From assembly GCA_020831625.1 (NCBI GenBank), contig JAFIGD010000019.1:1-64000 (forward strand): 64,000 nucleotides of DNA, in the 5' to 3' direction. This document shows positions 12,256 to 63,561 of this stretch, one piece after another. The first letter of the stretch is position 1; the number at the start of each line of letters is the position of its first letter. This DNA is from Verrucomicrobiota bacterium (GTDB taxonomy: Bacteria; Verrucomicrobiota; Kiritimatiellia; SS1-B-03-39; UBA6053). The notes under the pieces were generated by a model. It ran no database searches and was not told the DNA's origin. It saw only the letters and a list, made by a program, of their open reading frames with translations. The translations under genes and the position numbers were made by a program.

Positions 12256-15200
12256 CTAACAATCGTTATCGGAGAAAATGAAAGTCTCGACGACTTCTTC
12301 ACGGTCGGGCAGGATAAGAACGACCCGGCCTTCGGTGCCGCCGAGATTTTGGCCTTGAGGCTCCATTCCGATAAACGCCTCCGCCTGGTTGCCGATCGTG
12401 ACCGGATCGCTTCGGATCGATGGAAACTCAACCGACTCGACGCGCACAGTGTAGGCATTCTCCGTATCGTTGTTTACCACCCGGGTGAACGTATTGATCC
12501 CCCCCGCGCAGAGCGATTCGACGGTGAAGTCAATTTCGACCGGGCAGGTGATCTCTCGGCTGTCAAACAGCCCCAGCGGCGTGTCGATCACGTGGAACCA
12601 CACCTTGGGCTCATAGGTCACGTTGATGGTTATTGTCTGATGGGCCGGCACGGTGAAGGAATGCTCTCCGCTGCCAACGGTCAGGGGCACCGGTTCGTTG
12701 TTCCGGTTTTCCACCGTGAAGCGGCTGATGTCACGCGTTCGGCAGATTCCGGTGACGATGATGTTGGACGCAAAGGTCGGTTCGAGGATGCCTTTCTGTG
12801 CGGAGGCACCGCGAGTCAAAATCCCGAAACGGAATACTTGTATAATGCCTCCGTACTGTGTTGAAATCCGATAAATCCCGCTTTTGTAAGGAAACGTGCC
12901 GCTTGCAATCGTAATCTCCATGGGCCAGTGGGGGCTCATGGCTCCGGTTACGCTGAAGAAGGATTCACTTGCGGTAGAGTAGAGACGCTCGACCTGAAAT
13001 TCTCCAGAGTCGAAGCCATACAAAATCGGGTCACCCGTCAGGGTGTCTAATTCGAGGTCGAATCTGTCGAAGAAGTGCTGCCCTTCCAGATCAATGCCAG
13101 TTGGCAGGTCGAAAGGGATATGCTGCGTCTGAAAGGGTTGCAGCGTGCGCTCGTGGTGCCCGTAGTGAAGGCCGGTTTGACGGTCAGTGATGTATGTCAC
13201 CGCCTCAACCGGAAACGGATATTGGCTCCAAAGCTGTGCGACATTCCCGGCCAAATGCGCACCGGAGGGGAATCGGCTATCGGTATATTTTATTGAACAA
13301 GTGAGGGCCAGAGGCAAAGTGGCCGTCACGTCCACGTCTGCGGTGGCACCTGCCGCATCGGTCAGAGTGAGCGTAAAGGCATCACTGCCGATTTGCTGCG
13401 AAAGGGTGCGAAAAAACGCATGCTCACCATCATAGTACAAACCAAGGGGATCGCCTGAATGCGAGAGGATGGCTTTCGAAGGCAGCGATCGGACATCTCC
13501 GCCGACGATGGGGCTGCCATTGACATGGGTGATTCGCAGGCCATCTCCGACAATCTCGTTTACGACATCCGTGGTGAGGATTAGTGCCCTATTTTGGCCG
13601 TCGGGCTGCAACGTGAAACTTCCCGGGGAGACCGGCGCGGTATTGAAACGCGCCAGATCCAGGGAGGCGGCGGCGGTCGCCGAAAGCCCGCCGGAGTCGG
13701 TCACGGTGTAGGTGAAGCTGTCGGTATCCGTCGCCCCGTGGAAGACGGTCCGGCCGGGCGCGGGAACGTAGGTGAGCGTGCCGTCGCCATTGAGCTGCAC
13801 CTCCGCGCCGGAGGCGAGCTGGACGGGCGTGCTCAGCGTAAGCAGCTGGTCGGCGATGTGGCTGATCGCGAGGACATCATCCTCATCCGGGTCGCTGGCG
13901 CCGGCGAGTGGATCGAGCGGAATGGCCGTGAGGCGCGGGAAGGCTTCGGCGGGGATGGCCTCGCGCAGAAAGCCGGGACCGACGTATTCGACGGTCAGCG
14001 CGGCGGCGGGCTCAGTGGTGTCGAAGTAAAGCACGCGCACGCTGTGGGTGCCGGCGGTCAGTTCGACCGTGCCGGAGCGCTCTGTGTCATCGTGTGCGAT
14101 CACGCGGGTGCCGCCGACGTCGAGCACGGCGGTGTTGTTTCCCATGAGAAAAAAGGTGTAGGGGCCGGGCGCGGGGACAAAGAGTTCCCCCGTCATTTCG
14201 AGACCAAAGCCGCCGGTCGCGTCCGCCGCCGGGGCAAGGCTGAAGGTGGGCTGGCGGCCGGTCGCGGTCGGCTCGGCCGCGAGCAGACTGGCCTCGGTCG
14301 GGAAGTCGCCCTCGAAGTAACGGTAGGCGGTGCCGGCGGGTTCCACCGCGCTGGCATGACTGAGGGCAATGGGTTCGATTGTGGGCGGGTTGTTGATGCC
14401 GTTGACGGTGAAGGCAAAGCTCCGGCGGACCGATTCGCCGAGAGCATTCACCACGGTGTAGGTGATGACCTCATCCACCACGGCACCGCCGGGCATGGAG
14501 ACAGGGGCAAAAAGCTCCCCGGAGCCATCGGCGTTCATTCGCAGCGTGACCCCATACGCAAACGCCAGGGTGCTGCCCACCAGACCGGCCTGATCGTTCA
14601 GGGCGATCACCTCGATTCCGTCCGCACTCTCCGGGGATACTCCCCCGCCAAAGAGAAAACCCGGGGGGAAGGTGCGGGCGTCCGCATCCTCCTCGAAGAC
14701 CGCCCCGGCCGGCGCCTGCACGAGGCCGGGTGCGGGCGGGGCCACATAGCGCAGACGGAAAAAGGCGCGGGTTTCCCCGGCTCCCAATGCGAGGCGGGCC
14801 ATACCGCGTCCATCAGGATGGATTTCGTGGGGCATCGGATACCAGTCCTGCAGATCCGGCGACCATTCGCTGACCGCCTCCACCCCCAGCCGCTCCGCCC
14901 CGCGTTGAAACAGGAACTGCGCCTCGCCGGGCACGACCTCGAGATCCAGATTCAAAACTTCCCGGTTGTTGAGGGCGGGATCAAATCCATGAAACAAGCG
15001 CGCCAGCCGGGGGGCCGGATCGGTGGGGGCCGGGTCGCCGATCCGCAGGGGCGCGCCGTCGAGTTGCACCTCGGCCAGCGCAATGCGCCCCCCGGGGCTC
15101 CCTTGGAGGGAGACCGTCAAGGCCTCGGTGATCAGGCCGAGTCCTTCGATCCGCACCGCCTGCAAACTGCCGGTCTCCGCTCCGGCCGTCACCGGAATAC

Positions 15201-18200
15201 TCGCGGCAAAGCCTCCGGGGGTGGAAAGATGAATCGTGTCCGGAAGATCCACCGAGGCCGCGCCGCCACTGTTGGCGAGGTGAAGGGTCACGGCATCCAC
15301 CTGCGCCCGTCCGGTCAGAGACAGCGTAATGGCGGGATCGTCCTCCTCCCAGACGAGGATGGAGCCAAGCGGTTTTTGCAGCGGGTCGAGCCATGGAGCG
15401 CCCCACACGAGGGTCGGACCGAAACCGTTGGTCAAGACGATGCCGTGCGCATCCGCATACGTCGGCAAAGGCGCGTCGCTCAGGGCGTAGCCACTCATGT
15501 ACGGGCGCAGCGTGCCCTGCGGCAGGGATTGCAGCGGAAAGGTGAAGCCGAGGAAATCGAGCCCGATGACCGGCTCGACCACCGCGACATCGCCGGTCAG
15601 CACGGCATTGGCGAGCTGACCGGTCGCGTCCGGGACCGCAGTCCCGCCGGACATCTCAAACGTGAAGAGGGCCTCAAGCCCGGGCGCGTTCGACGGCGGC
15701 GTGGCAAAGCGCCCGGCGGACAGCACGGGACCGGGGCGGGCGTGGTCCCAGATCCGCAATTCGAGGATGCGTCCGTTGAAAGAAGATCCCGACATGCTGA
15801 ATCCGCCACCGATCTGGAGCGGGAGGGCGTTTTCCGAAAACGGTGCGTCGGCGATGCGGCTGCCGTCGTTTTCGCCGTTCACATAGACGCGCTGGGTGCG
15901 GGTCTCCGCATCGTAGGTGAAGGCGATGTGGACCCACTCGTTGACGGGCAAAACCGTGTCTCCGGTCAGGTCGTCCGACCAAAAGCCAAGGTGCAGGTGT
16001 CCATCGCGGATATTCAGATGCAACACATCACTGGGCCCGGGTTGGCCCAAAACCGACCGGTCGCCGCTGATATCCTTTAGCCATATCCACCCCTCGACGG
16101 TAAAAGAACGCCCCGCCAGAGAGAAGCCTCCGTCCAACTCGACGCGGCCGGGTGCGGCTCCAAACGCCAGGCCCGCCGTCATCCCTTCACCGGGTTGAAG
16201 CAGCAACAGACCATCCTGCACCTCAATCGCCTGCAGCCGGTCGGGGGCCGCTGCCCAGAGGGCGTCCCCGGCTTGCCGGGCGACAACCAGAACAACGCCG
16301 GGCCCGGTGATGCGGAGCGCATCGTCCCCTTCTAGAACTCCCGGCCCGCTTACGACCTCAAAGCTGACCGGCAACCCGGAATCGGCGCTGGCAACGAGCG
16401 TCACGACATCCTCAACCGGGACGGGCGGAATCTGAGGAAAATTCGAGATTTCCTGGGGCACGCGAACGACCTCAATCGTGCGCGAGACCGGCTCGGCAGG
16501 CAAAAACAAATCGTCCCCGGCCTGCGAGGCCGCAACCACAACCGTGCCCGTGGCCGTGAAGGAGAGCTCGTTTCCATCGACCACGGCGGGCCCCGAGACG
16601 ACCGCATAGCTGACCGGCAGCCCCGAGCTGGCGGTCGCGGAAAGCACAATCCCCTCCATCACCGAAGCGGGGGAAATCGCCTGGGTAAACACCACCTCCT
16701 GTGCCGCTTTGAGCACCGTAAAGCTCTGCGTAACCGCCTCGGCTGGCAAAAACGAATCGTTCCCGGCCTGCGAGGCCGCCAACGTGACCGTCCCCGCCGC
16801 CGTGAAGGTGAGCGTGTTGTCCTCCACCACCGCCGGACCCGACACCACCGCGTAGTTCACCGGCAGCCCCGAGCTGGCGGTCGCGACTCCGTCAAGTGTG
16901 ACCGTGCCCGTCGCAAGCTGGGACGATATCGTCTGCGTAAACACCACCTCCTGTGCCGCTTTAAGCACCGCAAAGCTCTGCGTAACCGCCTCGGCGGGCA
17001 AATACAAATCGTTCCCGGCCTGCGAGGCGGCCACCTCGACCGTCCCCGCCGCCGTGAAGGTCAGCGTGTTGCCGTCCAACACCGCCGGACCCGAGACCAC
17101 CGCGTAGCTCACCGGCAGGCCCGAGCTGGCGGTCGCCGCGAGCGTGACCGGCTCCATAAAGGGAACGGGCGAAACGGTGGGAAAGTCGATCGTCTGACTT
17201 TGCATCACGATGCCGCTGATCTCGATTTCAGCCAGCGCAACATTGTGCGCCCCCCGGATCAGTTGAATCACCAGCGTATCGGAAATCATGCCCGTGGGTG
17301 CCACGCTGGCCGGTTGTAGATCGCCCGGGTCTGAATCCGGGACGATCGTCTTCGAGAATGGAGTCCCGCCCGGCACCGAAACCTGAATCGAGGCCGGCAT
17401 GCCCACGCCACCCGCCCCGCCGCTGTTGGCCAGATAGAGCGTTACCAGGTCAACCCGCACCGGAGCGGAAAAGGTCAATGTAATCTCCGGACTCGTATTC
17501 TCCCAAAGCAGCAGGCCCGCGCCCTCGATCTCCATCGATTCGAGCCAGGGCGTCCCCCACACCCGCGCCGGGCCGGTGCCATTGATCAGCAACTCCCCGT
17601 CCGTGTCCGGATAGCCGGCGGCCGGTGCCGGGCTCACGGAGTAGCCGGTGACGGAGGCCGTCAAATTGCCACCGGGCAAGGCCTGCAGCGGGAAAGGGGC
17701 CCCGAGGAATGCCAGATTCACCACCGGCTCCACCACCGTGACCCCGCCGCTGAGGGTATTGCCCGTGAGGCTGCCGGTCGCCTCCGCGATGCTCGTGCCC
17801 TGGCTTTCCTCAAAGGTGAACAAGGCGCCCAGCCCCGGCGCATCCACGGCGGGCGTGGTGAAGCGCTCCGCCGCAATCGTCTCCGCCGACCGCGCATGGT
17901 CCCAGATCCGCAGCTCCAGCATCCGCCCATCGAAGGGATTCGCACCGGGCTCGAAAAAGCCTCCGATCTGTAAAGGCAGGTTGTTTTCCGCAAACTGAGC
18001 CGCCGCCACCCGCTCGCCATCGGCCACGCCGTTGAGAAAAACGCGCTGCGTGCGCGTCGCCGCCTCATAGCTGTAGGCCACATGCACCCACTCGCCCGTT
18101 GGCACGGGGGTACTGCCCGTCAAATCATCCCCCCAAAACCCGAGGTGCAATCGGTCATTGCGCACCAGCAAATGAAACAAGCCCTCACTCCCGATCTGCG

Positions 18201-18512: not shown

Positions 18513-21500
18513 TCAGAAACAGTTTTCATCCGAAAAGGTGAACGTCGGGCCCTCCATCGGCCCGGATTCCAACAGAATAACCAATCGGCCCTCCGTGCCG
18601 CGGACATCCCGGCCTTGGGTGTCCATCTGGATGGTCACATCGGAATCCGCGGCAATGGTTACGGGACCGCTGATCAGGGTTGGGAATGCCACGGACTCGA
18701 TGCGCACCGTATAAGCCTGGTTACTGTTGTTGATCACTTGAGTAAAGGAGGTGAAGGTGTCGGAGCAAAACGAATTAATGCTGAAATCAATCACCGTGGG
18801 GCACACCGATTCACTGCTGTAGTGCAGGCCGAGGTCTCCATCGAGAAGTTTGACCGGAATCCTCGGCAGGTAATTCACGTCGAATTCCACCGTCTGTCCT
18901 GCGGGCACAGGCACCTGTTTCTGTTCGTTGCCGACGGTGAGCACGATATCCTCATCGTTCAGGTTCTGGGCGGTGAAGCGACTGATGTCATTGGTGCGGC
19001 AAATCCCCTCGATGATGATGTTGGCCGCAAAGGTGGGCTCGATGACTGTGATGTTGGCGGGGGAGGAGCGAGCCCTAAGACCTTGGTGGTAGAGCGTCAC
19101 GATCGAATCGTAGGGGAAATCGTCGACATAAACACCAGTGGGAAAGGATTGCCGGATGCCGCCATTCTCTATTTCATTATGATTAGGCCAGTGGGGGCTG
19201 GAGGCTCCACCATAGGTGAAGAAGGAACGCGAGACAGTCGAATAGAGGGGGGTGAGTATCATACCCCCCGAAGTGCGCCCGTAATAGATCGGGTCGCCGT
19301 CCAGAGTGTCAATCTCCAGATCATAGCTGTCGAAAAAGTCACCCTCTCCCAGATCCACACCCTCGGGCAGATCAAAACTGACATCTATGTTTGTACGGCT
19401 GGGCAGGGTGTATTCAGCGCGACCGATTTCATCCCCGGTTTGCCGGTGCTTTACATAGATTTCGGCGGTGACGGGAAAGTTGTATCGGGAAAGCAGCCGC
19501 ACGGTGCGGGGCGGAATTGAGCTGTCAAAACGGCGATCAGAGTAGCTGATCCTCTGCACTATGCCCAGCGCATCATCGATCCAGATGGGGAGTTCCGCAG
19601 TGGCCCCCGCCGCATCGACTACGGTTAGCGTAAACGAGTCAATATAACGCTCATCTCCGGAGAGAGTCCGAACGGAAGCACCATAACCATCATAAAAGAG
19701 GGATTGTTGACCCCCGCTCGTCTGCAGGTAGATTGTGGCGGTGGAGGGGAGCGTGGCGGCGAGGGTGTTTGTGGCGGTGGAGGGGAGCCAGGCGGGGAAG
19801 GTGTCGGTACCCAGCAGGGGGGCATCTCCCACTCCGATGATACGGAGCGGGTCGCCGTCGGCGTCGCTGAGACGACCGCTCAGGTCGAGGTCACCCTGAT
19901 TAAAAAATTGATCGGTTGACAACTGGGTCGAGCCGTCGGCAGTGGGCGCGGTGTTCTGGCGGGCGAGGTCGATGCTGGCGGTGCCGGTGGCGGAAAGTCC
20001 CCCGCTGTCGGTGACGGTGTAGGTGAAGCTTTCGGCAAAGGTGGCCTCGTGGAGGAGCGTCTTTCCCGGGGCGGGCACGTAGGTGATCTGCCCGTCGGCG
20101 GCGAGCGTCAACGAGGCGCCGGAGGGCAAAACGGCGGGTGCCCCGTCGACGAGAGCGGTGCCGTTGAGGTGGGAGATGCGCAGGACATCGCCGTCATCGA
20201 TATCACTGGCGGTGCCAATGGGCAGATCGGACAGGCGGGGAAAGGCGCTGGCGGGGATCGGCTCGCGCGGCAGGCCGGGGCCGGAGTAGTCCACAGTGAG
20301 CGGCCCGGGAACGTCGGCGTCGAAATAGCGCACCCGGAGGGTGTGCGATCCGGCGGCGAGGGTTATGGTGCCGCTGCGCCCGGTGGCGGGATCTTCCCAG
20401 GTGTTGTCAACCACGCGCTCGCCGTCGATATCGAGCACGACGCCGTTGGCACTGCCGGTGTAGAAGGTATAAGGTCCGGCGGCGGGGACAAAGAGTTCGC
20501 CGGTGAATTCAAAGCCGAAGCCATCGTCCGCCGTGGCGGGATCGAGGCTGAAGGTGGGCAGTCGTCCGGTGGCCACGGGTTCGGCGGCGAGCAGGCTTTC
20601 CTCGGTCGGAAAGTCGCCTTCGAAGTAGCGGTAGGCGATCCCGGCATCGACGGTCCCGGTGGCGTGGCTGCCGGTGAAGTCTTCCACCGTCGGCGGATTG
20701 TTTTCACCGTTGACGGTGATGGCGAAGGTGCGGCGGATGGATTCGCCGAGGGCGTTGACCACCGTGTAGGTGACGGCCTCGTCCACGACGGCATGGCCGG
20801 GCATGGAGACGGGGGCGGTCAACTCGCCGGAGCCGTCGGCATGGATCCGCAGCGTGACGCCGAAATCAAAGGTCAGCGTGCTGCCAACCAGGCCGGTTTG
20901 ATCGTTCAGGGCAATCAGCTCAAGATCGCCGGCATCCCCGGCGGACAACTCGTCGCCAAAAAGGAAGCCGGGAGCGAACAGCTGCGGCTCAGCATCCTCT
21001 GTAAAGACGGAGTCTGCCGGAGGCTGCACAAGGCCGGGTGCGGGCGGGGGCACATAGCGCAGCCGGAAAAAGGCCCGGTCCTGGCCGGGGGCCATCGTGA
21101 ACCGGGCCATGCCGCGGCCATCGGCCGGGTTGATTTCCTGCGGCATCTCATACCAGGTTTGCAGGTCGGACGACCATTCGGGCACGGCCTCCGCGCCCAG
21201 CCGCTCGGTCCCGCGATGGAACAGAACCTGTGCCTCGCCGGGTACCAACTCCATCTGCAATTTCAAGACGTCACGGTTGTTGAGAGCCGGATCAAAGCCA
21301 TGATACAGACGGGCCAGACGGGGGGCCGGATCGAAGGGGGCGGGATCGCTGATTCGCAGCGGCCCGCCCTCCAGGTGGACCTCTGCCAGCGCGATGCGCC
21401 CGCCTTCGGTCCCCGAGAGGGTGACGGAGAGGGCCTCGGTGATCAGTGCCAGATCCTGAATCCGCACAGTCTGCAAGCGGCCGACTTCGGCTCCGGCGGT

Positions 21501-22577
21501 GACGGGGACGGTGATGTTGAAGCCGCCGGGGGTGGAAAGCTGAAGGCTGTCGGGCAGAGCGACATCCGCCGCGCCGTCGCTCTGGGCGAGATAGAGGGTG
21601 ACCGCATCCACCCGGGCGCGCCCGGCGAGGGAAATATGGATGGCGGGATGGGACTGATCCCAGACCAGGATGCTGTCGACGGGGTTCAGGAGGGTGTCGA
21701 GCCAGAGGGTGCCCCAGACGCGGGCGGGGCCGAGGGTGTTGGTGAGCACGGTTCCGCTGGGGTCGGCGTAGTCCGGCAGAGGCGCGGGGCTGAGCGTGTA
21801 GCCGCTCACGTAAGGGCGGAGGCTGCCGATGGAGAGCTGCTCCAGCGGGAAGGTGGAGCCGAGAAACGCGGGTCCGACAACCGGCTCGACCACCGCCACA
21901 TCCCCGCTCAGCGTGGCGTCGGAGAGCTGACCGGTTTCCTCCGGGATTGTGGTTCCGTTGGATCCTTCAAAGGTGAAGAGCGCATCGAGGCCGGGCGCAT
22001 CGGTGGATGGAGTGGCGAAACGTTCCGCCGCGATGTCTGCCGCCGTCCGCGCATGGTCCCAAATCCGCAGCTCCAGCATACGGCCGCTCAGGAAATTCCC
22101 CCCCAGCCAAGTGCCGATTTCAAGCACGCGGTTGTTTTCCGCGAATTGATGATCCGCAGTGCGCTCGCCATCGGGCACCCCGTTCAGAAAGACCCGCTGC
22201 CGGCGGCTGGAAACGTCATAGGAAAAGGCCACATGCACCCACTCTTGAGCGGGCACGGGGGTCGCTCCGGTCAAATCATCCGCCCAAAATCCGAGATGCA
22301 CCCGTCCGTCCCGTACAAGCAAGTGCATCGGGTCGGCATCGGGCTGCGCCAGAATCGCTCGATCCCCCGCTGTGCTGTCGAGCCACACCCAGGCCTCGAC
22401 CGTGAAGGAGCGCCCCGCCAGCGAAAACCCCGAATCCAGCGTCACCCGCCCCGATTCACCCGAAAACTCGAGCCCGGCGGTGAGAGGCTCTGCGGCCAGA
22501 ACACGCTCGGCTCCGGCACTGAGAAGCAAGAGGGGTATGGCGACAACAGAAAATGTGCGCGCCACGAAATCGGGCAT
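18513..22577 (-). CDS. Giant secreted LamG / PA14 surface protein (paralogue)
   Basis: Starting at the ATG at 22577 (MPDFVARTFSVVAIPLLLLS) it encodes 1354 residues with a clean signal peptide ending LAAEP. Domains: one LamG (about 30-210), a linker beta domain, a VCBS-like stretch, PA14 (YRYFEGDFPTEESL), another VCBS-like unit (ESFTYTVTDSGGLSA) and the same C-terminal module as its neighbour, ending FSDENCF. Compared with the 2052-residue paralogue it lacks the four Ig repeats and the second LamG. The frame is open to 22715, and an ATG at 22676 aligns with the start of the paralogue, but it would put 33 residues before the signal peptide. The two genes are tandem duplicates. Confidence 0.85.
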   Translation of the reverse strand: MPDFVARTFSVVAIPLLLLSAGAERVLAAEPLTAGLEFSGESGRVTLDSGFSLAGRSFTVEAWVWLDSTAGDRAILAQPDADPMHLLVRDGRVHLGFWADDLTGATPVPAQEWVHVAFSYDVSSRRQRVFLNGVPDGERTADHQFAENNRVLEIGTWLGGNFLSGRMLELRIWDHARTAADIAAERFATPSTDAPGLDALFTFEGSNGTTIPEETGQLSDATLSGDVAVVEPVVGPAFLGSTFPLEQLSIGSLRPYVSGYTLSPAPLPDYADPSGTVLTNTLGPARVWGTLWLDTLLNPVDSILVWDQSHPAIHISLAGRARVDAVTLYLAQSDGAADVALPDSLQLSTPGGFNITVPVTAGAEVGRLQTVRIQDLALITEALSVTLSGTEGGRIALAEVHLEGGPLRISDPAPFDPAPRLARLYHGFDPALNNRDVLKLQMELVPGEAQVLFHRGTERLGAEAVPEWSSDLQTWYEMPQEINPADGRGMARFTMAPGQDRAFFRLRYVPPPAPGLVQPPADSVFTEDAEPQLFAPGFLFGDELSAGDAGDLELIALNDQTGLVGSTLTFDFGVTLRIHADGSGELTAPVSMPGHAVVDEAVTYTVVNALGESIRRTFAITVNGENNPPTVEDFTGSHATGTVDAGIAYRYFEGDFPTEESLLAAEPVATGRLPTFSLDPATADDGFGFEFTGELFVPAAGPYTFYTGSANGVVLDIDGERVVDNTWEDPATGRSGTITLAAGSHTLRVRYFDADVPGPLTVDYSGPGLPREPIPASAFPRLSDLPIGTASDIDDGDVLRISHLNGTALVDGAPAVLPSGASLTLAADGQITYVPAPGKTLLHEATFAESFTYTVTDSGGLSATGTASIDLARQNTAPTADGSTQLSTDQFFNQGDLDLSGRLSDADGDPLRIIGVGDAPLLGTDTFPAWLPSTATNTLAATLPSTATIYLQTSGGQQSLFYDGYGASVRTLSGDERYIDSFTLTVVDAAGATAELPIWIDDALGIVQRISYSDRRFDSSIPPRTVRLLSRYNFPVTAEIYVKHRQTGDEIGRAEYTLPSRTNIDVSFDLPEGVDLGEGDFFDSYDLEIDTLDGDPIYYGRTSGGMILTPLYSTVSRSFFTYGGASSPHWPNHNEIENGGIRQSFPTGVYVDDFPYDSIVTLYHQGLRARSSPANITVIEPTFAANIIIEGICRTNDISRFTAQNLNDEDIVLTVGNEQKQVPVPAGQTVEFDVNYLPRIPVKLLDGDLGLHYSSESVCPTVIDFSINSFCSDTFTSFTQVINNSNQAYTVRIESVAFPTLISGPVTIAADSDVTIQMDTQGRDVRGTEGRLVILLESGPMEGPTFTFSDENCF

Positions 22578-58635: not shown

Positions 58636-60576
58636 TTAGGGCATATCCGCAGGCGGAGGATTGAGCAGCCTGAATCCGACAAACCCCCGATCGCCAATAT
58701 CCAGCGGCAAACGGGCCTCCCACGCCTCTGTCTGAGAGTCCACATCGCCCAGAGAAAAAATGAACTCCTCCGCGAGCGGCTCCCAATCCGCCAGGTCTTC
58801 ACTCACTTCAACCACCAGAGCGACATCCGCCATGTTTTTTCGCAGGGTGTACCGCACCGGGAGATATGCTCCCGCCCCCTGCCCGACAATTTCACCGGCC
58901 GCAGGCAACGCCTCCGGTTGCGTGGCGCTTAAAGACGCGCCCAAGCTGTAGCGCAGCAGATTGCTCAGCCCGTCCGGGCCGGAACTGTCCCCGACACCGG
59001 ACTGATCAAACGGGATCCCCTCCTCCTGCAGCCAGCGGTGATAGGTCGTGGCTTCGCTGCCGAAAACAGCAAAGGTGAACGCCCAGTCATTCAAAAAATC
59101 AATTGAACTCACCCCCACCCCGTTGCCCGGATTGACGGTGTTTTCCGCGCCCTGCCAGAAAACCCGGTTAGCCTCATCTTCCCCGCCGACCGGATGCAGG
59201 GTAAGCCGATAGGTTTGGCCGGGAACGACAAAAACCCGCACCGGAACGGTTATCAATGTGGAACTCCCCGTTACCGAACCGACCGGGATGCCGCTGCGGA
59301 AAAGCTCGCCCCCGCTGACCGTGCTCAGGCTCACCTCCGGGTCAGGGGGACTCCCGGCCTTAAACAGCCGAACGGTGATCTCATCGATATACCCCGCCGT
59401 CGGAATAATCTCCTGCCAGAGTGGCGAATCATCAATCCCAAAGCCGCTTCCCGCCTCAGGCTGTTCAAGCTGAAGCGTATGGGGCCCGGCGGGCGGAGGC
59501 ACCACCACCACCCGGACGGTGCCGCTGTCAGCCGTCCCCCCGTCATTCGCCGCCCGCATCCAAAAGGTCTGGGTGGCGGTGACCGGATCGACCCTTAAAA
59601 CCCTCTCCTCCGCTCCCGTCAACGGAGAACTCAAATCACCGCTCTGCCCGGCATACCAACTGAAACTCAGGGGGGGGAGGCCCTTCACCAGGGTCTCCAG
59701 AATCAACGGATTCCCCGTCACCAGGGTGGTCCCCGGCGGATCGGCGATGATTTCCGGAAGCGCGGGTTGGGCGGTACGGAAATTTTCCACCTGGGCACCG
59801 ACGCTTTGAAAGGAGGTCGCATTGTCGGCCGGCAGGGGATCTGTCGCGGGCAACCCGGTCGGCACCCCGGCAAAGGAAACGTTCGGATTGGAAAAATTCG
59901 GGATACGGATAAAGCCGGAGCCGGTCGTCATGACGGTTCGGTAGTCAATGTTGTCGGTGCCGGTGAATCGATAGCCGAAGGAGGTGCTTAACTCGGGATT
60001 CCCCCCGCTGGAATCGCCCCGATGATGCCCCGAGGACAAATTGTGACCGATCTCATGGGCAAAGGTGAAATTGCTCATGGCGGTCTCATCCGCCACCACA
60101 CTGAAGCCAAAGCTTTGTTGGGGGGTTTCCCCATGTAATCGATAGGCCAGGCCCGCAATGCCGCCAACCGTCCCCCGCCGGAAAAGGCTGACCAGATCGG
60201 CGCCGTAGGCATCCCTCATGGCATGAACCTCCTCCAACGCCGTCAAATTCGGATCCTGCAAATTATCCAGATCAACGGCAAGAGAAAATGAGTTCTCCAC
60301 GTAATTGACCTCCTCGATCCCGACCACATTCCAGACCATGGGGATTTCGCTGTTTTCCAGCACGGCATTGCTTCCCTCAAAGGTGGCCAGAACCTGGGCA
60401 ATAACCCCGTTTTCGCCTTCGTAGAACGCTTTCACCGCCGGGGTGTAGACCACCAGGATATCGATCCGGATAGGATCAGGATCGCCGGCGGCGACCCGAA
60501 GTGGAGAAGCGGCTAAAAAAAGAAGAGGTAAAAACAGGGCCCTGAAGAGCCGCGAAGCGTTGAGTTTTGTATTCAT
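58636..60576 (-). CDS. Secreted reprolysin-like zinc metalloprotease
   Basis: The start at 60576 (MNTKLNASRLFRALFLPLLF) overlaps the stop of the upstream gene (ATGA); it gives 646 residues. A signal peptide (1-30) leads to the catalytic domain (about 35-300) with the zinc site HEIGHNLSSGHH (174-185) and a Met-turn region VMTTGSG. An Ig-like domain (about 305-390, PPLSFSWYAGQSGDL), a pre-peptidase-like domain (ITVRLFKAGSPPDPEV) and a C-terminal beta domain of verrucomicrobial type follow. No propeptide is encoded here; a candidate is the preceding gene. Confidence 0.85.
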   Translation of the reverse strand: MNTKLNASRLFRALFLPLLFLAASPLRVAAGDPDPIRIDILVVYTPAVKAFYEGENGVIAQVLATFEGSNAVLENSEIPMVWNVVGIEEVNYVENSFSLAVDLDNLQDPNLTALEEVHAMRDAYGADLVSLFRRGTVGGIAGLAYRLHGETPQQSFGFSVVADETAMSNFTFAHEIGHNLSSGHHRGDSSGGNPELSTSFGYRFTGTDNIDYRTVMTTGSGFIRIPNFSNPNVSFAGVPTGLPATDPLPADNATSFQSVGAQVENFRTAQPALPEIIADPPGTTLVTGNPLILETLVKGLPPLSFSWYAGQSGDLSSPLTGAEERVLRVDPVTATQTFWMRAANDGGTADSGTVRVVVVPPPAGPHTLQLEQPEAGSGFGIDDSPLWQEIIPTAGYIDEITVRLFKAGSPPDPEVSLSTVSGGELFRSGIPVGSVTGSSTLITVPVRVFVVPGQTYRLTLHPVGGEDEANRVFWQGAENTVNPGNGVGVSSIDFLNDWAFTFAVFGSEATTYHRWLQEEGIPFDQSGVGDSSGPDGLSNLLRYSLGASLSATQPEALPAAGEIVGQGAGAYLPVRYTLRKNMADVALVVEVSEDLADWEPLAEEFIFSLGDVDSQTEAWEARLPLDIGDRGFVGFRLLNPPPADMP

Positions 60577-61292
60577 CGGATGGGGGGGGCTACGGGTTGA
60601 GGAAATGCCCGGGGGGGCGGGGCGAAGGTATCGGGTTCCAGACAGGTGAGGCATTCGCCCAGGGCGTCGGCGTCGATCTCACTGAAAACCGTCGTTCCCT
60701 CCGGCCCCGGGCGGATTTCATACACCAAACCCTCGCCGGGAATGTGAATCGACCCCGCCAGACTTCCGTTGACAGAGGCCAGACTGACCAGACTGCCGGG
60801 GAATCCCGCGACTTCGCCCCGCAGGACGGAGCCCCCCAGTCGGTGTTCGGTGAACCGCGCGACTTCAATGACATGCGACGCCCCGTCGAAAAACTGAAGC
60901 GTGAACGACTGCTCCTCACCGGACTGAAACCGTTCGCCCACCTCGGCCAGAGAAGGCTCCCAGTGCCCGCGCCGGGAACGGATCACATGAGAATGCTCCC
61001 GGTCTTCCCTCCCGTCCAACCCGGCAACGGCCCGCTCCGGCGATGACGAACCCGGTGTTGACAGATCCGTCGCCTCCGCTTCCGTTTCGTCCGCTTCTGT
61101 CGGCTCCGAATTCCCGGGAGATTCCTCGACAGCGGCCCGATCCCCTTCGCTCCCGTAAGTATCCACCACGCTTCCTTCTCCTTCGGGATCAATCGAATCC
61201 GTTTCCCCGTTTCCGTTTCCAAACCAAAAATAAATCCCAATGCCGCAAGCGCACCCGAGAATCACCAACACGATAAAACGGAAAAAAGACAT
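60573..61292 (-). CDS. Membrane-anchored propeptide-like protein, coupled to the protease
   Basis: The 239-residue protein has an N-terminal anchor (4-24), an acidic low-complexity spacer (28-100) and a domain (about 110-225) with RGEVAGFPGSLVSLASVNGS, IHIPGEGLVYEIRPGPEG and EIDADALGECLTC (Cys214, Cys217). The GxVxGxPxSxVxL and PGxxYEIRP patterns are those of metalloprotease propeptides. It is translationally coupled to the protease by an ATGA overlap, so it may act in trans as inhibitor or folding helper, with its Cys available for a cysteine-switch. Confidence 0.65.
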   Translation of the reverse strand: MSFFRFIVLVILGCACGIGIYFWFGNGNGETDSIDPEGEGSVVDTYGSEGDRAAVEESPGNSEPTEADETEAEATDLSTPGSSSPERAVAGLDGREDREHSHVIRSRRGHWEPSLAEVGERFQSGEEQSFTLQFFDGASHVIEVARFTEHRLGGSVLRGEVAGFPGSLVSLASVNGSLAGSIHIPGEGLVYEIRPGPEGTTVFSEIDADALGECLTCLEPDTFAPPPRAFPQPVAPPIR

Positions 61293-61334: not shown

Positions 61335-61398
61335 GCTAAACGATTAGGAGCTGCGGACCCGAGGCGCGAGGGTTCACAGCCGTCTGTTGTTGTTCTGC
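61335..61398 (-). repeat. Integron attC site 3
   Basis: On the minus strand the outer core sites are GCAGAAC (61398-61392) and GTTTAGC (61341-61335). Between them is an imperfect palindrome with arms GCTG...ACCC and GGGT...CAGC. GCAGAAC is the exact complement of GTTCTGC in site 2, as required for the two ends of one cassette. It directly abuts the stop codon of the 61-residue gene. It is the distal end of the array. Confidence 0.75.
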
Positions 61399-61584
61399 CT
61401 ATTCATTTTGTGAGTCTGGTTTGGCCTGCGGCAGGACCGCGTGCAGTATCAGTGACACAATCACGCAGACTGCTGTGGCAAAAAAGGCTTTTGGCCCGGT
61501 GCTCCATGAAACAAGTTGTGCAGACAGCAGTCCGGCAAACAGGCCTCCCGTGCCCATCACAATTCCCTTTGATTTTGCATTCAT
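61399..61584 (-). CDS. Small cassette-encoded membrane protein
   Basis: The 61-residue protein has two hydrophobic stretches (about 8-28 and 34-52: GLFAGLLSAQLVSW, FFATAVCVIVSLILHAVL) and polar ends. It has a good Shine-Dalgarno (GGAGG, 7 bp before ATG). It sits between attC sites 2 and 3, so it is the gene of one integron cassette. No family is recognised. Confidence 0.65.
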   Translation of the reverse strand: MNAKSKGIVMGTGGLFAGLLSAQLVSWSTGPKAFFATAVCVIVSLILHAVLPQAKPDSQNE

Positions 61585-61612
61585 TATTTACCCTCCATCA
61601 TTTTGTTTTCCA

Positions 61613-61673
61613 GCAGAACGTCTCAGTCCACCATACCCGACGTAGGAGGGTTCGGCGGGACTGATAGTTGTGC
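61613..61673 (-). repeat. Integron attC site 2
   Basis: Minus strand: GCACAAC (61673-61667), arms AGTCC-CGCC-GA-ACCC and GGGT-AT-GG-T-GGACT around a 9-nt loop, and GTTCTGC (61619-61613). GCACAAC is the exact complement of GTTGTGC in site 1, the other end of the same cassette. The stop codon of the 225-residue gene lies inside the site, as is usual for cassettes. Confidence 0.8.
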
Positions 61674-62300
61674 CTTTTTCAATTTTATAGTTGCAAATCG
61701 ATAAAATCCGCGAGCAGCAACAACAGGAAGAATAAGTCCGATAATTCCCCAGGGCTCTTTTTTGATGTGGGTATAACCCTCTTTGATAGGCGCATACTCT
61801 TCAAAAGCATTAAATAGAATCATCCATATTTGCAATGCGAGTAAAATAAAAATATTTTTGTTCAGCAATGAGGTAAATGATGGTACTTCATAACTTAAAT
61901 GCTTAAGGATTTTTTGTGCCGTTATAAGGTAGAGCGGGATAGCTGCAAGAGTACATAAAAAAAAGATAATATTATCAAAAAGCCTTTTAGGCAAATTGTT
62001 TGGCAGTATATAGGTTGAAACACCAGAGAGGTAGAGTGCCAAAAAGGCGACAGCCACCCCTGTTAACCATTTGACCGTTTTTTCTTCCATCTCTTGAAAT
62101 AGACGTAACCCTAAGAATATCGCAATAATCCCTGGGATAGCCATCATCGGTACAATTGTTAAGAAGAAAATAAAATCTGCCATCATAAATCCATCTAACC
62201 ATACAGACCTGATTGGTGGGGCCAACGTACCCCATACCCAATAGAAACCGAAAGTGATTATTAAACCACTTATTAGCTTTCTCATGTTCTTGGGTTTCAT
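61623..62300 (-). CDS. Cassette-encoded polytopic membrane protein
   Basis: Start at the ATG at 62300 (MKPKNMRKLISGLI); 62285 is possible and a GTG at 62324 lies inside attC1. About 225 residues with six or so membrane segments (IITFGFYWVWGTL, FIFFLTIVPMMAIPGIIAIF, WLTGVAVAFLALYL, NIIFFLCTLAAIPLYLI, IFILLALQIWMILF, IIGLILPVVAARGF). No family is recognised. Base composition is visibly more AT-rich than in flanking genes, in line with capture as an integron cassette between attC1 and attC2. Confidence 0.7.
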   Translation of the reverse strand: MKPKNMRKLISGLIITFGFYWVWGTLAPPIRSVWLDGFMMADFIFFLTIVPMMAIPGIIAIFLGLRLFQEMEEKTVKWLTGVAVAFLALYLSGVSTYILPNNLPKRLFDNIIFFLCTLAAIPLYLITAQKILKHLSYEVPSFTSLLNKNIFILLALQIWMILFNAFEEYAPIKEGYTHIKKEPWGIIGLILPVVAARGFYRFATIKLKKAQLSVPPNPPTSGMVD

Positions 62301-62305
62301 TTTAT

Positions 62306-62354
62306 GCACAACGCCTACCCGCACTGACTTGTTCAGTGGCGGGGATTGTTAGCC
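62306..62354 (-). repeat. Integron attC site 1
   Basis: Minus strand: GGCTAAC (62354-62348), arms CCCGC-C-ACTGA and TCAGT-GCGGG around ACAAG, and GTTGTGC (62312-62306). One arm carries a single extra C, the extrahelical base that lets IntI choose a strand. It encodes the last residues of the upstream cassette gene (KANNPRH-stop) and the next gene begins within 6 bp of its end. Confidence 0.85.
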
Positions 62355-63076
62355 TTTAGGTGGATTTCTGACCAGTCATGAATTCGTTGGTTTCTTGCCA
62401 CGAGGAATTTGATAGCGGCACTCCGGTAATCAAGGTACATCGAAACACTATTCGGAAGTGGTGTCGATGTGAATCCCTCAAAAGGAGTGAAGAACCTTAC
62501 CTCAGCATAATCCGACGAAACAATGTCTTGCAGATGGAAAAAATCAATATACCCCCGGAAATTTCCGAAAATTTCAAAATAGCTCTCGTATCGTTCTAAG
62601 ACATCACTCAAAGGACTGTCTTCTTTGATGTAGTGCCTTCGGATGCATTCAACTGTATAATCAAATCGATCCTTAATCAGTCGGTTGCATCCACGTGCTT
62701 GGTTGATTGTCCACTTTCGATCAATTTGGATCGCTGGGAATAACATCATACCTCCGATCGTGTATCCAAGGCCACCAAAATTCTTATATTCATCAGGAAT
62801 CTGCTCAAGGATTCTTGAGAGGCTTCTTTGCCTTCGAAAAGTGGGGATTACCGTATCACTCGACAACCAGAAATCGCCAAGTACCGAATTATGGTGAAGG
62901 TAGAATGGAGGTGATGCTTTGCTAACGAGTTTAAACTGCTCACCACTCGGCAAGGGTTTTCCCCAAAGCAACTCATGGTACCTACAAAGCGTCGGACTCC
63001 AAGTATCCGGATCCTTTCCTGGGGGTGTATCCGTTCGAAAGTCAAATGCAGTGTTGATTATGTTGTTTTGCTTCAT
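62333..63076 (-). CDS. Cassette-encoded DUF6994-like protein
   Basis: Start at the ATG at 63076 (MKQNNIINTAFDFRTDTPPG), 247 residues. The sequence KDPDTWSPTLCRYHELLWGK and PLPSGEQFKLV is the opening of the DUF6994 family as I remember it, a soluble protein common in gene cassettes and of unknown function. The rest has FHLQDIVSSDYAEVRFFTPF and WSEIHLKANNPRH; the stop is inside attC1. Its left cassette border is not clear: near 63108 the minus strand has TGTAGCC, a poor match to the expected GTTAGCC. Confidence 0.7.
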   Translation of the reverse strand: MKQNNIINTAFDFRTDTPPGKDPDTWSPTLCRYHELLWGKPLPSGEQFKLVSKASPPFYLHHNSVLGDFWLSSDTVIPTFRRQRSLSRILEQIPDEYKNFGGLGYTIGGMMLFPAIQIDRKWTINQARGCNRLIKDRFDYTVECIRRHYIKEDSPLSDVLERYESYFEIFGNFRGYIDFFHLQDIVSSDYAEVRFFTPFEGFTSTPLPNSVSMYLDYRSAAIKFLVARNQRIHDWSEIHLKANNPRH

Positions 63077-63139
63077 TGCGCAATTGGTGCTGTTCTTGCC
63101 TGACTGGCTACAAGTGCTTATCAGAAAATCCGACAGCAA

Positions 63140-63561
63140 CCGGATTGGGGTGGATATCGAAACAAATTTCGACCTGAATTAACTGTAATCACTTTATTCC
63201 TTTGTTTTGATATTAAGTGGATCATGTTTATTTACCATTCGCTCACCGTATATGACATATTATTTTTCTCTTTTCAATTTTTTTGCTTTTTCTCTTCCTT
63301 ACAAATTCTCGTTTTTTGAAGAGGAGGATCAGTGTTTATCAGTGAAATCGGTGGTTAGTTTCTCCACCCCGCCTCTCCGTGACTCTGGTACTGCATTGTA
63401 GCCGAATCTCCAAAAACCCAACAAGTTGCCAGCCGTTTGCTGGCTAAAAATTAATATATAAAATTTAATTTCACATTATTCTTGCTAATACCAATCGATT
63501 ACTGGAGTAATGATAGGTACTTCGATTGCTCACGCCAAATCTCAGTAAAAATAATCCAATC
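63140..63561. other. AT-rich gap with ATCNGTG phrases; no integrase
   Basis: No gene is supported. ATCAGTG-type units occur in tandem near 63330-63355 with ATCGGTGGTTA and CTCCGTGACTC, similar to the phrases at 830-1150. A hairpin GCCAGCCGTTTGCTGGC lies near 63430. I find no attI or integrase. The AT-rich 63455-63560 should hold the promoter of the next gene. Confidence 0.4.

Follow-up and report, generated by a model that had tools for sequence, protein, structure and literature searches.

Are the three attC-like sites near the end of this DNA an orphan cluster of integron cassettes (CALIN), and, if so, how did the cluster come to stand apart from an integrase? The window, that is, the whole stretch of 64,000 nucleotides that was analysed, corresponds to bases 1-64000 of contig C13 (80703 bases), which runs 16.7 kb beyond it; the study genome (G000) comprises 4.89 Mb in 111 contigs and is 96% complete. 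Tools of the IntegronFinder type recognise a CALIN by at least two attC sites within 4 kb of each other. We consider it very likely (probability about 0.9) that the cluster is a CALIN of three head-to-tail cassettes, marked by attC sites A, B, and C, and that it adjoins no functional integrase gene.

The attC sites and their cassettes

The features of the cluster, with C, B, and A being the sites in cassette reading order (sites 1, 2, and 3 of the original prediction), are the following:

61335..61398, minus strand: attC site A (distal), R'' GCAGAAC at 61392-61398, R' GTTTAGC at 61335-61341; model match at 61335-61395
61613..61673, minus strand: attC site B, R'' GCACAAC, R' GTTCTGC
62306..62354, minus strand: attC site C, short type, R'' GGCTAAC, R' GTTGTGC
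61341..61618, minus strand: cassette 1, 278 bp by the G|TT rule, start TTCTGC, end R'' GCAGAAC
61619..62311, minus strand: cassette 2, 693 bp, start TTGTGC, end R'' GCACAAC
61399..61584, minus strand: gene of cassette 1, 61 aa, with hydrophobic stretches
61623..62300, minus strand: gene of cassette 2, 225 aa from ATG, hydrophobic, a membrane protein by inspection
62333..63076, minus strand: gene of cassette 3, 247 aa from ATG, DUF6994 (PF22507), Pfam E 1.9e-88
63100..63447, minus strand: stretch expected to hold the start of cassette 3, with candidates TGTAGCC (63106-63100) and TTTAGCC (63447-63441)

The sites were evaluated with a calibrated covariance model (R1), which stands in for IntegronFinder's own attC model and was built from 40 attC sites of relatives' arrays and of contig C87 of the study genome; neither the window sites nor any site of contig C13 entered the training set. 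The training sites were gathered by profile search, aligned, and given the R''/R' and then the L''/L' pairing with one extrahelical base. Since the alignment covaries, the helix of the model is supported: 10 of the 12 pairs of the variable stem change on both sides, 93% of the cells are paired (23-35% when the alignment is slid by 1-3 columns), and the covariation score is 0.49, against 0.12 in shuffled and at most 0.07 in slid alignments. R1 gave no matches in three relatives that were searched as a check on its specificity. Strict consensus searches (RYYYAAC...GTTRRRY) had returned unrelated sites only, and early arm-matching scans many chance matches; the covariance model was used instead.

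In a joint search of the 64 kb window, R1 matched sites C, B, and A, with no further match up to E 10. The three attC-like sites that had been proposed to lie between short genes are thus recovered by a model built without them, at 38.3 (C), 40.9 (B), and 37.1 bits (A) in a 4 kb search with filters off (E-values over 4 kb of 1.1e-8, 2.2e-9, and 2.3e-8, respectively). In the genome-wide search, in which 150 of the 1849 first-look candidates were scored, B and A reached E-values of 2.7e-6 and 2.8e-5; site C is not among the matches listed, probably because of that fraction. A search of Rfam gave no matching family.

According to the covariance model and the alignments, all three sites possess R''/R' with the AAC/GTT core, paired L''/L' arms, and an extrahelical base. 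The single extrahelical base reported for site 1 is indeed there, although it is not peculiar to that site, since R1 places one in the L'' arm of A, B, and C alike. For the R'' of site A, R1 prefers GAACAAC, which is shifted inward by three bases relative to GCAGAAC. An AAC repeat has probably expanded at this point, and cassette closure favours GCAGAAC, the R'' set by hand for the closure score of this site.

This closure rule compares the first seven bases of a cassette (G|TTnnnn) with its own R''. As had been claimed, the core sites pair exactly across each complete cassette, 7/7 in both cassette 2 (GTTGTGC/GCACAAC) and cassette 1 (GTTCTGC/GCAGAAC). Over 84 neighbouring attC pairs from the study genome and its relatives, window included, 57 match at 7/7 and 17 at 6/7, whereas 2.1% and 8.7% of shuffled attC pairs reach these values, and the match inside a single site mostly amounts to 3-5 of 7. 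For cassette 3, the R'' of site C (GGCTAAC) predicts a start GTTAGCC; the stretch 63100..63447 (minus strand) holds no exact copy, only the imperfect candidates listed above, and no attC or attI was recognised in it. Both ends are defined for two of the three cassettes.

It might be argued that the sites are chance palindromes or REP-like repeats. The fold of site A is in fact no better than that of shuffled sequence (single-strand folding z of +0.4 to +0.6, against -2.0 to -2.7 for B and -2.8 to -2.9 for C). However, the R1 scores, the closure rule, and the homology to attC sites lying beside intact integrases in relatives speak against this explanation, whose probability we regard as negligible.

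Each cassette carries one gene, always on the minus strand. The stops are located as originally described: those of genes 2 and 3 fall inside attC, and that of gene 1 directly abuts site A; the last 17 aa of the cassette 2 protein are encoded at or in attC B. The 61-aa and 225-aa proteins matched no family, and a search of the cassette gene products for a solved structure, a defence family, or a curated name returned none. The DUF6994 match was found again in the whole-genome search (E 2.5e-88), and the family is sporadic, occurring in 6 of the 288 genomes of the class. The idea that DUF6994 is a typical cassette gene was discarded on the basis of two neighbourhoods without attC: in G094 the distance to an intact intI is 0.8 kb, but R1 detected no attC beside the gene, and in G001 the gene lies in GC-rich surroundings.

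Each cassette comprises one gene and a terminal attC, whose single strand is predicted to fold and to be cut at G|TT by an integron integrase (IntI); excision would yield circles, the first bases of the cassette pairing exactly with R''.

Integrase remnants and further arrays in the study genome

The cluster was originally described as orphan, with no integrase in the window. Three attC sites lie within 1.02 kb, no integrase occurs within about 15.7 kb, and a full intI with attI beside the array, the mark of a complete integron, was not found at the cluster. The description stands as a working classification. The absence of an integrase holds for the window and, as regards an intact intI, for the assembled genome, where no match exceeded the TIGR02249 cut-off; it does not hold for the contig, since a broken integrase with its own attC array begins 15.7 kb from the cluster, just past the window and in the same orientation. 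Hence, "orphan" may be a question of distance. The search for intI elsewhere in the genome that had been advised yielded three broken copies (C13:78832-79440, C87:28779-29269, and C68:44747-45094) and none intact. All three have lost the core and keep an N-terminal part and a C-terminal part (GHSDVxTTMIYT), the latter being GHSDVKTTMIYT in the C13 remnant. The sites accompanying this remnant are the following:

77867-77927 and 77310-77371, upstream of the C13 remnant, other strand: attC sites
near 76846, likewise upstream and on the other strand: a decayed, short attC site

The C87 and C68 copies are 97.5% identical over 399 bases and bear different internal deletions. The internal deletions of the three integrases are separate, and short repeats apparently flank some of them (by eye, CAGGAGATnCTG at the junction in C68). 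About eleven attC sites follow the broken integrase of C87. C87 (L015 14722-14776) and C68 (L016 9236-9290) terminate in an identical stretch of 55 bases, with which a cassette present in both arrays begins; therefore, the assembly breaks inside repeated cassettes. The C87 array also contains an identical 300-base cassette twice (L015 11225-11524 and 12999-13298) and a cassette (L015 11919-12600) in which an apparent GTA/TAC core, mutually matched, replaces GTT/AAC at both ends (by eye).

Among the matches listed, attC sites at E 1e-3 or better occur on C87, C13 (two places), C23, C25, C71, C100, and C101 and, further, on C8, C31, C76, C6, C65, and C104, and several arrays lie at contig ends. 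An intact integrase could be hidden in the missing ~4% of this 111-contig genome.

Some other features of these contigs can be mentioned here. Right behind the C13 integrase remnant lies an IS30-like transposase gene (by eye; C13:79629-80573, L011 16629-17573), followed at the contig end by a poly-G tail that looks like a sequencing artefact. Contig C100 (L012 2168-4406) carries an IS91-like transposase (by eye) beside a tyrosine recombinase, the latter under the integron-integrase cut-off, close to an attC array at a contig end. The interval between the cassette clusters of C13 contains, amid apparently secreted proteins, a 2587-aa open frame (C13:67637-75400, L011 4637-12400), and within the window two 2.5-kb stretches (13634-16128 and 19945-22430) are 69% identical.

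The chromosomal address and the origin of the cluster

A host gene at the distal border of the cluster served as a positional anchor:

60573..61292, minus strand: host gene, 239 aa; G003 ortholog 70% identical

The congener G003 harbors this ortholog on contig C397 (PXAS01000232.1, 3929 bases), which belongs to the MAG "PVC group bacterium isolate T3Sed10_216"; the T3Sed isolates come from soda-lake sediment. There, attC sites of 44.6 and 23.5 bits follow the ortholog, with different cassettes, which encode a protein of 190 aa and a pair of small genes resembling, by eye, a ribbon-helix-helix plus PIN-type toxin-antitoxin, for which a family search gave no match. The 225-aa protein of the window and the 190-aa protein of G003 are alike only in their last 17 residues (76%), the attC-encoded tail, and are otherwise unrelated. 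In the congener G001, a remnant of the 239-aa gene is followed by attC sites of 31.6 and 31.1 bits and by other cassette genes. Because the same gene borders attC sites in the three genomes, attC-bordered cassettes at this address are, judging from these sequences, probably older than the split of G000, G001, and G003, their contents having changed since. An empty site was looked for in the sister species and was not found, the contigs there breaking in or beside the arrays and the upstream block being rearranged.

Two species of the genus have an intact integrase, and in one only broken copies were assembled. Relatives of the same family likewise possess intact integron integrases with arrays. 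The closed genome G008, of this family, contains about 102 attC sites in eight loci (39, 21, 18, 8, 8, 4, 3, and 1 sites), only two of the eight having a full integrase at a distance of no more than about 1.2 kb, and clusters of attC without an integrase are common in the family. It is conceivable, although we hold it improbable, that the integron of this family of uncultured PVC bacteria is a multi-address system in which a small number of integrases act in trans on many clusters at fixed chromosomal positions; were this true, a CALIN like the present one would be a standing exchange site, its position conserved and its cassettes turning over from one species to the next.

The term "orphan" describes the present state of the cluster and does not necessarily imply an independent origin, given the deleted C13 integrase with its array, the two further broken copies, and the use of the same address in the sisters. 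Most likely the cluster is the remnant of an old array. We infer that decay of the integrase, perhaps together with rearrangement, might have severed an integron array of long standing at this address from an active enzyme. The loss of intI is what the assembled genome displays.

Concerning rearrangement, the cluster and the broken integrase at C13:78.8-79.4 kb might once have belonged to a single integron, of which the cluster would be the distal part; the roughly 12 kb of host genes that now separate them (63.5-76 kb) would have entered or been moved there. This split is plausible, its chances being somewhat below even: the cluster lies on the same contig, in the same orientation, and downstream of the remnant and its cassettes, and in G003 no attC array stands upstream of the gene with which the intervening block opens, this gene being near others that sit on another contig in G000. 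However, neither scar nor repeat was found when the edges of the 12-kb block were searched, and the attC types are common to the whole genome, so that the likeness of the window sites marks neither this pair nor any source array. Alternatively, an integrase elsewhere in the cell might have placed the cassettes stepwise at a secondary chromosomal site. The attC sites scattered over many contigs of the study genome, some apparently solitary, and the eight loci of G008 are compatible with such insertion, which is also among the proposed origins of CALINs (PMC8618304). We nonetheless regard it as possible but rather unlikely: attC clusters next to one and the same gene in G000, G001, and G003 are better explained by an inherited array than by separate insertions, and no clean G|TT junction was found at the proximal end. 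Both scenarios concern how the cluster arose and leave its identity as a CALIN untouched.

Returning to the remnant of an old array, the cluster would now be immobile in this strain, unless the gaps of the assembly conceal an intact IntI or one is acquired from elsewhere; given such an enzyme, the cassettes might yet be mobilised in trans.

Comparison with known systems

Loot et al. (2024), cited in PMC11023631, are said to have described the insertion of cassettes at attG sites, which resembles the present case as a possible route for cassettes to sites away from attI; however, the proximal junction of the window lacks the expected G|TT.

A survey of hypersaline sites (PMC7923331) found CALINs rather than full integrons at most of them, and Halorhodospira halochloris was reported to carry a CALIN without any intI. 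The predominance of CALINs is in agreement with our data, whereas the hosts are different; a text search of that paper gave no mention of T3Sed isolates or Kiritimatiellae. Chromosomal integrons with inactivated integrases are known in Xanthomonas, where arrays outlast integrase function (PMC8618304). Arrays persist after integrase loss in the study genome as well, which differs in belonging to the PVC group, in its three distinct integrase remnants, and in the spread of its attC sites over many contigs.

The same paper proposes that CALINs arise in three ways, by losing intI, by off-target insertion, or by rearrangement, and these correspond to the possibilities considered above for the present cluster. 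The cluster shares with known CALINs at least two close attC sites, one gene per cassette, and no integrase nearby, and differs in its small size (three sites) and in an address also used by sister species with other cassettes. It adds to an already described kind and is nothing new in type. The cluster is ordinary and its setting is useful: R1 and the closure statistic can be reused for this bacterial group, and the genus, with one address, three species, and different cassettes, provides a natural comparison of how CALINs originate and persist.
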